A stretch of 5,834 bases of DNA, taken from positions 1 through 5,834 of the forward strand of contig JAEOUK010000256.1 in the NCBI GenBank assembly GCA_016839385.1. The letters run 5' to 3'. Source of the DNA: Promethearchaeota archaeon (GTDB lineage Archaea; Asgardarchaeota; Lokiarchaeia; Sigynarchaeales; MK-D1). A model generated the notes under the pieces. That model was given only the letters and a program-made list of their open reading frames with translations. It did not search any database and had not been told where the DNA came from. Both the position numbers and the translations under genes were made by a program. How positions within the stretch are numbered: position 1 is the first letter of the stretch; each line of letters starts with the position of its first letter. This document shows, piece after piece, positions 4,023 to 5,681 of the stretch.

Positions 4023-4659
4023 AAATTCGCTGATTATCTGAATTTATTTAAATATTATCATGAAATTTATTTATTTTATATTAAATATGCAATCTCATTT
4101 AATTGATATACAATGTAGTTTTCGCTTTCTTATCCAGAAAAATGAACTTGATCAACAAAATCGTCCCATTGATCTCAAAATAGACAAATTTGAAATTATG
4201 GATCAAATTTTGGACAAGAATTTCTTCAATTGGTGGACAAACTTTTTCTCTAAGAAAACAGATTTCCACTAAGATTTAGAATCATCTGGAAGAATTATAA
4301 TAGATCTACTATATTTGGACAAAAATACAAAATATTCAAATGAAAAATCTTAGATTTTTTACTTAAATCAGATTCCTGGCATTTCAAGGAGAATGATGGA
4401 AAACATTTTTTCCGAACTTCCTTAAGAGCTGGTTAATAATCGGGGGAATTTTTTTATGTTTTTTTTTGATTCACCATCAATTTTTTTTGTATTAATTTTC
4501 AAACCCGATCTTATTAGGACTTTTTACTTACAAAAAACTGGAGATAATCTTCTATATCTCAAATATTTTTCATCTAACGAATTGGGGCGTATCTAAACCA
4601 CTCTCGAAACGAAATAATCATTCCTCTTTACACTTAACTGGGAGTTTCAAGCAATCTAA
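4023..4659. other. long AT-rich gap without a convincing gene
   Basis: No protein gene is supported here. The longest frame (4060-4272, +, 70 codons) has no SD, no recognisable motif and biased AT-driven residues. What the region does hold: three copies of TGGACAA (4211, 4234, 4316); a palindrome AAAAATCT-T-AGATTTTT (4343-4359); a cluster of T-runs (4448-4488); and a distant stem pairing 4434-4444 with 4504-4516. No tRNA, rRNA, CRISPR or transposase remnant was seen. It is probably regulatory or noncoding, or the relic of a lost gene. Confidence 0.5.
4434..4516 (+). other. long-range inverted repeat enclosing T-tracts
   Basis: TAATAA-TCGGG (4434-4444) pairs with CCCGA-TC-TTATTA (4504-4516): 11 base pairs with a two-base bulge around a 59-base interior. 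The interior has T7, T9 and T8 runs (4448-4454, 4459-4467, 4481-4488) and a small TTGAT-TCACC-ATCAA stem (4466-4480) directly before the T8. It could be a structured terminator region for an unseen + strand transcript, or a noncoding RNA. A chance origin cannot be excluded. Confidence 0.3.
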
Positions 4660-4668
4660 TTTATATAG
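4660..4668 (+). promoter_or_regulatory. TATA-like box before the hairpin RNA candidate
   Basis: TTTATATAG at 4660-4668 is one of the best TATA-like matches in the window. A start about 26 bases downstream, near 4690, falls just before the long stem at 4697. A second TATA-like stretch, TTTATAATA (4688-4696), would start transcription inside the stem. Confidence 0.4.
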
Positions 4669-4689
4669 ATTTATAAGTTCAGAACACTT

Positions 4690-4790
4690 TATAATAATAG
4701 GAATGCAAAAGAATCTTTTTGGCCATTCTTAATTTCCTCCGCATAAAAATTAATTTGGTAATTTTTTTTTGCATTCCTATCCTTTTTTTT
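4690..4790 (+). ncRNA. candidate structured small RNA or leader, long nested hairpin ending in T8
   Basis: Bases 4697-4710 (ATAGGAATGCAAAA) are perfectly complementary to 4767-4780, and the stem extends through 4711-4713/4764-4766 with one G-U and two A-U pairs, making 17 bp. Inside, 4722-4725 pairs with 4756-4759 (four pairs, one G-U), and 4729-4735 pairs perfectly with 4747-4753 (seven pairs). The apical loop is 4736-4746, CCUCCGCAUAA. A T8 run (4783-4790) follows two bases after the stem, and a TATA-like box lies about 30 bases upstream. Together these suggest a transcript of about 100 nt with defined ends. The loop matches the anti-SD core, so pairing with GGAGG-type ribosome sites is conceivable. 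Alternatives are a leader or attenuator of the DUF1848 gene 28 bases downstream, a terminator, or a small non-autonomous mobile element; no target-site duplication is seen. No known RNA family is recognised. The 5' end is inferred. Confidence 0.45.
4783..4790 (+). terminator. T8 run directly after the long hairpin
   Basis: A T8 run preceded by CC follows the base of the 17-bp stem, an arrangement resembling an intrinsic terminator on the + strand. The other flank of the hairpin is not T-rich when read on the minus strand, so orientation is +. It would end a small RNA or attenuate transcription into the gene at 4818. Confidence 0.5.
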
Positions 4791-4804
4791 ATAGTCAACC
4801 ATCT

Positions 4805-4820
4805 CATTTGATTTCAAATG
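4805..4820. promoter_or_regulatory. inverted repeat ending on the DUF1848 start codon
   Basis: CATTTGA-TT-TCAAATG is a perfect 7-bp inverted repeat with a two-base centre, whose last three bases are the ATG at 4818-4820. No SD is present. A TATA-like TTTTTATAG (4785-4793) would start transcription near 4815, giving a leaderless message; the repeat would then act as a DNA operator. With a longer leader it would instead hide the start codon in a short hairpin. Confidence 0.4.
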
Positions 4821-5681
4821 GATCCAGTAAAATCTTCTATTATTTCTTGCTCTCGTCGGACAGATATTCCAAGTTTTCTAATGGATTGGGTAGTGGATAA
4901 AATGAAAAAAAAGAGTGTAGAAGTGGTCAATCCGTTTAATCAGAAAGTTTCAATAGTTTCTTTAGATCCCTATGATGTTATTGCATGGGTATGGTGGAGT
5001 AAGAACTTTCAGCCATGGATTAACTCATATACAAAAGCTCCAAGATTATTTACTCAATATCCTATTCATTTATTTAATTTCACAATTAATTCAGTTTCAG
5101 AACTGGAATCTGGTTTAAACTTGACACTAAAAGAGAGATTCTCACAACTGGAATGGTTGGTTGACACTTTTGGAGTAGATCATATCCAAGTCCGTTTTGA
5201 TCCAATTGTATTTTACAAGAAATCAAGTCAAGAGGTTATTTTCAACAATCTCTCTGATTTTGAACACATAATTTCCGAAATTTCAAGTTTAGGAATAAGG
5301 GAATTAATTTTTTCATTTGCTCAAGCATATTCGAAAGTAAAGAAGAGAATGCTTCATAGGGGAAAAACGATCCTAGAGTTAACTGAACTACAAAAAAAGA
5401 AAGTAATTGACTCCTTAATAGCAAAAACTAATCAAAATAAAATTAATCTTTCTGCATGTTGTCAGTCTGAGTTAGTAGGATACAAAGGTATAAAACAATC
5501 ACATTGCGTTAATGGAGAATTAATCCAAAGACTTTCAAAAGGAAAGCTTACCTTGATAAGAGATTCGGGCCAAAGAGAACATTGTGGTTGCCAAAAATCA
5601 AAAGATATTGGAGGATATACTGGAATCTTCAAATGTAAACATAATTGCGATTATTGCTACGCAAATCCTACTAGAAAATAA
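4818..5681 (+). CDS. DUF1848 family protein with C-terminal CX3CX2C (radical-SAM-like) motif
   Basis: This 287-residue soluble protein matches the DUF1848 family over its whole length. Landmarks in order are: S-C-S-R-R-T-D-I-P (10-18) at the N-terminus, NPFN (38-41), WWSKN (59-63, usually FWTKN), V-R-F-D-P-I (125-130), A-C-C (213-215), H-C (229-230), R-E-H-C-G-C (253-258) and the terminal C-K-H-N-C-D-Y-C-Y-A-N (273-283). The three cysteines 273, 277 and 280 have the CX3CX2C spacing that holds the 4Fe-4S cluster of radical SAM enzymes, but at the C-terminal end instead of near the N-terminus. Cys214, 215, 230, 256 and 258 could hold a second cluster or metal. No function is established for the family to my knowledge; a redox or radical SAM-type enzyme is inference. 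ATG 4818 places the conserved SRRTDIP block at the usual N-terminal distance. The stop abuts the stop of the minus-strand frame. Confidence 0.9.
   Translation: MDPVKSSIISCSRRTDIPSFLMDWVVDKMKKKSVEVVNPFNQKVSIVSLDPYDVIAWVWWSKNFQPWINSYTKAPRLFTQYPIHLFNFTINSVSELESGLNLTLKERFSQLEWLVDTFGVDHIQVRFDPIVFYKKSSQEVIFNNLSDFEHIISEISSLGIRELIFSFAQAYSKVKKRMLHRGKTILELTELQKKKVIDSLIAKTNQNKINLSACCQSELVGYKGIKQSHCVNGELIQRLSKGKLTLIRDSGQREHCGCQKSKDIGGYTGIFKCKHNCDYCYANPTRK

Follow-up and report, generated by a model that had tools for sequence, protein, structure and literature searches.

Is the hairpin that precedes the DUF1848 gene in this Lokiarchaeia DNA a leader of that gene or a small RNA in its own right, and what might it act on? 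The stretch analysed, here called the window, is 5,834 nt long; its genes encode a cupin protein, two GNAT proteins, an MFS transporter and DUF1848. A preliminary description had placed a nested hairpin with a 14-bp perfect stem, a TATA-like box and a T8 run ahead of DUF1848. The stem is present, with 50 nt between 17-nt arms that are complementary at 16 of 17 positions (94%), the inner pairing of TTAATTT with AAATTAA also folds, and the T8 run lies where it had been placed (Table 1). The promoter assignment needed a shift: the proposed box, TTTATATAG, was found at 4660-4668, but relatives retain the box that follows it, TTTATAAG. Folded as RNA, positions 4660-4800 reach -25.3 kcal/mol (z -3.12) and positions 4694-4794 a z of -4.35, with 0/200 shuffles as low in either case; the reverse strand of 4640-4800 folds less strikingly (z -2.37, 6/200 shuffles as low).

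Table 1. Features of the predicted small-RNA locus, in window coordinates
Feature	Positions	Strand	Basis or remark
Predicted small RNA, ~95 nt: terminal stem, internal loop, inner stem, apical loop, U-run	4697..4790	+	Fold, relatives and TATA spacing; predicted ends
TATA box TTTATAAG	4670..4677	+	Kept in L051; one base changed in L001
Outer stem 5' arm, ATAGGAATGCAAAAGAA	4697..4713	+	GGAATG conserved; bases below GGAATG covary
Outer stem 3' arm, TTTTTTTGCATTCCTAT	4764..4780	+	
UUGGCCAU, complement of start codon and next codons (AUGGCCAA)	4719..4726	+	
Inner stem 5' arm	4729..4735	+	Covarying
UUUCCUCCGCA, apical loop and some closing bases	4733..4743	+	Complements GGAGG motif preceding histone genes
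Inner stem 3' arm	4747..4753	+	
T8 run, probable U-tract terminator	4783..4790	+	
DUF1848 gene (PF08902), neighbour outside the small-RNA unit	4818..5681	+	

Addressing the first part of the question, a cis leader or terminator of DUF1848 is suggested by the window itself, in which the T8 run ends 27 nt ahead of the DUF1848 start codon. The relatives point elsewhere: DUF1848 flanks the hairpin in only 3 of 33 loci, and among 29 DUF1848 loci, a few of which end short upstream, only L001 matches the hairpin model. The DUF1848 protein of the window is closest to those of Lokiarchaeota (66% in L001). In L051 the hairpin lies ~220 nt from DUF1848 and in L052 (G002) it is elsewhere. Neighbours vary, with an ETF-alpha/ferredoxin-like ORF, recognised by eye, in 18/33 loci. 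The leader reading of the preliminary description is therefore dropped, and its proposal to judge the pairing in relatives that keep DUF1848 relied on the wrong gene.

We traced the hairpin through related genomes with sequence searches, covariance models and a structural pattern. BLAST and nhmmer located it in L001, before DUF1848; model R1 gave a third hairpin in G020 (L051) and model R2 a fourth in G002 (L052), adjoining another gene. Weak R1/R2 matches read on the matched strand have the same architecture in G038, G063, G068, G071 and G011, and such matches lie on the same strand as the structural-pattern hairpins, including those of G038 and G068. Over the 83 genomes of the class, R1 recovered few of the later members, mostly weakly. 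The structural pattern GGAATG..TCCTCC..CATTCC, which holds these three elements fixed, occurs at 51 places in 48/83 class genomes (reversed-pattern control, 1 place); setting aside by eye G017 (two places), G049, G083, G084 and one of two places in G076 left 45 places in 44 genomes. Model R3, built from 46 hairpins with no histone gene included, was run on 37 of the 39 class genomes without a structural-pattern member (not G081 and G083), plus G014, and added eight hairpin genomes (G008, G026, G027, G028, G030, G046, G052 and G055).

Overall, structural pattern and covariance models place the hairpin in 52 of 83 Lokiarchaeia genomes, usually as a single copy. Across the phylum, with stricter filters, R3 matched 53/227 genomes at E<=0.01, 52 through the hairpin and one, G007, through a histone start; at this threshold no genome outside Lokiarchaeia among the 227 matched. 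Because the genomes are related, independent events are fewer than these counts. There are 53 hairpins in the 52 genomes, only G063 having two; a further hairpin, built on a different stem, occurs in G046. An inverted-repeat mobile element was rejected on this ground, as multiple copies per genome were not seen, and chance is contradicted by the shuffles and the reversed-pattern controls. We regard it as scarcely credible that a DUF1848 leader or terminator, a mobile-element repeat or chance accounts for the hairpin.

The outer stem is 96.8% paired with double changes in 4 of 11 pairs, a level that 0/500 shuffles reach, and two pairs of the inner stem have double changes among the window, L001 and L051; the compensatory changes that the preliminary description had proposed to look for thus occur in both stems. 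Main-lineage members typically read GTAGTGGAATG...UUUUAGCC(C)AUAAUUUAUUCCUCCAC...CAUUCCAUUAC, followed by a U run. Many of them have, by eye, an extra 5' hairpin (AGAAAAUUUCGAUUUUCU or similar), which folds in all three members folded whole; in these three the apical loop of the small RNA exposes CUCCAC. Two further hairpins (G007 L377 and G046 L376) keep the same loop on different stems, which argues that the loop is the working part and the stem a holder.

The small-RNA gene is predicted to have its own promoter and terminator signals, a TATA/BRE-like motif and a T run. The TATA region aligns among the window (TTTATAAGTTC), L001 (TTTTTAAGTTC) and L051 (TTTATAAGTTA), with TTT(A/T)TAAGTT upstream common to all three; given the usual archaeal TATA-to-start spacing, the retained box would put the transcription start at the foot of the stem. 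A BRE+TATA-like motif, defined by a pattern composed after the sequences had been seen, is present upstream in 40/53 member sequences, compared with 2/53 on the opposite strand and 56/2000 random places, and in 38 of the 40 it lies 61-68 nt before GGAATG. A run of at least five T follows the stem within 28 nt in 52/53. Rfam yielded two sub-threshold matches in the window, neither at the hairpin, and no match at E<=1 in L188, L195, L201, L180 and L052, so the earlier statement that no known family is recognised stands for the six members tested. Compensatory pairing, TATA box, T run and the Rfam result support the possibility, raised in the preliminary description, of an undescribed small RNA; that the hairpin marks a small RNA gene, conserved within a single class of Asgard archaea, is a well-supported prediction from sequence.

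Addressing the second part of the question, we identified histone translation starts as the putative partners. The exposed window loop UUUCCUCCGCA, together with UUGGCCAU, is complementary to such starts, and the complement of the loop resembles a ribosome-binding motif followed by a start. We searched two hairpins against their own genomes (G001 and G020). In G001 the top match other than the hairpin itself is antisense to a histone start (E 0.0086, 22/24 bases), belonging to a gene that encodes a lysine-rich tail; the top match in G020 falls at the start of a same-type histone, again antisense (E 6.4e-4). The G001 hairpin also matches a histone start in G002. The first R3 run returned 23 rows (8 hairpins, 13 antisense histone starts and 2 hairpins with other stems) and the phylum run 59 (53 hairpins and 6 histone starts); in the checked rows of this hairpin-only model, histone starts were the sole non-hairpin matches. 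Searched in the 83 genomes, GGCCATN{3,14}TTTCCTCCG occurs at five places, namely two hairpins, histone starts in G020 and G029, and one place in a GC-rich genome (reversed control, 1 place). The exact two-part target pattern GCGGAGGN{2,15}ATGGCCAA matched hairpins alone in G001 and G020, and pairing with histones is therefore imperfect; the complement of the start codon (CAT) is present in 41/53 hairpins and is not retained throughout. In both G001 and G020 the hairpin is on one contig and the histone start on another, and no histone occurs among the 14 largest clusters of flanking ORFs (at least 70 residues) at 33 hairpin loci. The histones read are those of related genomes and not of the window's own genome, and no 16S 3' ends were recognisable in the loci fetched. 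It is well supported by these comparisons that a conserved, exposed loop segment complements histone ribosome-binding regions.

Another reading takes the opposite strand as the functional one, either as a short leader ORF or as a sense mimic of a histone start: this strand reads GGAGG, spacer, ATGGCCAAR, it also folds, and a run of at least five A, a possible reverse-strand terminator, precedes the stem in 31/53 members. However, 12/53 lack the ATG, and the distance from ATG to GCATTCC is 20, 17 and 16 nt in the window, L001 and L051, which therefore have no one common frame; a reverse-strand mini-ORF was rejected for these two reasons. The promoter-like motif, moreover, favours the + strand, and we consider a functional reverse strand very unlikely.

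Several comparisons bear on whether the complementarity is specific to histones. The motif [CT]GGAGGAA precedes 24/31 histone genes in eight genomes with the hairpin and 0/21 in seven genomes without it, counted in a fixed 160-nt stretch ahead of the profile match. The true start falls outside this stretch in L074, L084, L085, L087 and L088, and L074, L085, L087 and L088 lack the motif on separate reading. The histone-profile matches used were 30 of 51, those with loci. The seven loci without the motif in hairpin genomes comprise two that read GGAGGAT (L080 and L100), three without GGAGGA (L081, L082 and L098) and two that gave no clear reading (L149 and L157). Six genomes have the histone motif with no hairpin found (G005, G042, G043, G053, G057 and G067), which may reflect absence of the hairpin, another stem or an incomplete assembly. 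A search of 12 genomes with GTGGAGGAATN{0,14}ATG gave 96 rows at 89 distinct places, against 5 places for the reversed control. The 89 places, 84 of them fetched and five being hairpins known from the structural pattern, comprise 34 histone starts (3 of which include a short insertion), 9 hairpins, 35 places inside ORFs by a mechanical test and 11 others. As background, in 400 kb of G010, 0/290 ORF-called genes have GTGGAGGAAT and 16/290 have GGAGG.

Duplex energies were computed for 27 histone starts chosen from eight genomes and for background starts from G001 and G010, with 60-nt stretches throughout. Paired with the loop of their own genome, 18/27 histone starts beat all 573 background starts and 25/27 fall within the best 15; L081 and L098 are unremarkable, and the other seven of the nine that do not beat the background are within the best 15. 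Shuffled loops reached the observed mean duplex energy in 0/200 cases in each of five genomes.

The loop and the histone motif also appear to vary in concert. In the main lineage, histones mostly have GTGGAGGAAT and loops read AUUCCUCCAC; in G001, G020 and G002, CGGAGGA is found in 7/10 of the histone starts read, and the loops read CCUCCGC. Main-lineage loops favour the histones of their own group (-27.8 vs -17.5 kcal/mol), and G001-group loops hardly do so (-25.3 vs -24.1 kcal/mol). The loops of G026, G027, G028 and G030 also read CCUCCGC, and the single G026 histone seen reads TGGAGG, which could offer no better than a G-U pair. Taken together, these sequences are suggestive of a loop and histone motif that differ together between two genome groups. 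This bears on whether the RNA might act as a decoy for GGAGG motifs in general, with histones prominent merely because they have the strongest such motif. Genes other than histones do carry the motif, and GTGGAGGAAT was seen at the start of an HTH regulator in three genomes (L259, L266 and L281) and of an actin in G079 (L304). Against a decoy, bases beyond GGAGG match the loop, GTGGAGGAAT in one group and CGGAGGAAA in the other, changing together with it, and most histone starts out-pair every background start; we judge a general decoy unlikely.

Since its exposed bases complement histone start sites, the hairpin RNA probably controls histone amount. We propose, with considerable confidence, that it is a trans-acting antisense RNA that would mask ribosome-binding sites in most histone paralogs, with repression as the probable outcome. 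Specifically, the predicted gene would be transcribed as a small structured Lokiarchaeia RNA, in which the terminal and inner stems would hold out a CCUCC loop. Loop and flank would pair in trans with the initiation regions of histone mRNAs, covering a Shine-Dalgarno-like motif, the spacer and in many cases the start codon. Such pairing would block ribosome access and lower histone synthesis, and several paralogs could be set at once.

To our knowledge, how the amounts of Lokiarchaeia histones are set has not been described. In eukaryotes, U7 snRNA pairs near the 3' end of histone pre-mRNA and acts in its processing; the hairpin RNA would resemble it as a small RNA pairing with histone messages, and we claim no homology. 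Closer in mode is sRNA162 of Methanosarcina mazei, which, in the excerpted text, acts in trans on the MM2441-MM2440 mRNA and masks a predicted ribosome-binding site (PMC3510493). The hairpin RNA would likewise be an archaeal trans-acting small RNA with a single-stranded part over such a site; unlike the hairpin RNA, sRNA162, which we liken by description, has three stem-loops and homologs in two close relatives only (PMC3510493). DsrA, as described in the excerpts, pairs at the start of the Escherichia coli hns mRNA and represses a nucleoid-structuring protein (PMC4231754); it differs in being bacterial, in pairing just past the start codon, in also activating sigma S and in targeting an unrelated protein family (PMC4231754). 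By analogy, sRNA162 and DsrA/hns may serve as precedents for masking of a ribosome site.

The direction of the effect could be the opposite, with the RNA activating or stabilising the histone mRNAs that it pairs with. The complementarity would be identical, and PMC12993045, in the part consulted, describes Shine-Dalgarno sequences as rare among Lokiarchaea, which means that the motif could be something other than a ribosome site. However, the bases that would pair include the ribosome-binding motif and, in many cases, the start codon, and such pairing most likely represses in sRNA162, by the excerpts of that account (PMC3510493). Activation is quite unlikely, and repression by masking is the reading that we carry forward.

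More broadly, Lokiarchaeia have at least five groups of histone paralogs inherited from their ancestor, according to the excerpted text of PMC10919886. It seems to us about evenly balanced whether a single small RNA governs the dosage of most Lokiarchaeia histones by pairing directly with a motif that these ancient paralogs have in common, which would give Asgard archaea an RNA-based level of chromatin control; where Shine-Dalgarno sequences are hardly used, the motif may persist mainly as a landing site. Histones are DNA-packaging proteins. If the proposal is true, one RNA complementary to most of their start sites would count both as an RNA that regulates archaeal histones and as a regulatory small RNA conserved among Asgard archaea, the relatives of complex cells. 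Among the papers listed from the literature covered, with preprints and most subscription papers outside its scope, no example of either was recognised; the literature search found no paper on a Promethearchaeum transcriptome, and the excerpts of PMC7015854 and PMC6412873 hold nothing bearing on a small RNA acting on histones.

Among viral contigs, GGAATGCAAAAGN{0,12}TTTTGGCCAT gave no match and ATAATTTATTCCTCCAC matches 44 contigs; two viral contig pieces match R3 weakly (L402 11048-11116 and L421 998-1084, E 0.013 and 0.018). The HTH protein in L259 has weak MarR/TrmB-like Pfam matches, below cut-off. Five histone genes (L231, L232, L283, L288 and L290, in G010, G008, G011 and G013) contain short insertions, sized by eye at a few tens of nt, that follow MAKKV or MAKKKHS or sit near HAGRKK, with the remainder readable in another frame or past stops; these are possible short introns in archaeal protein genes. 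In the window, positions 4500-4690, ahead of the hairpin, give a good alignment with L051 and a poorer one with L001, and no gene was recognised there. Further upstream, L001 retains most of TTAAGAGCTGGTTAATAA (4422-4439), and L051 has it in inverted orientation at the equivalent position (about 1217-1236); this putative element is possibly an orientation-independent binding site.
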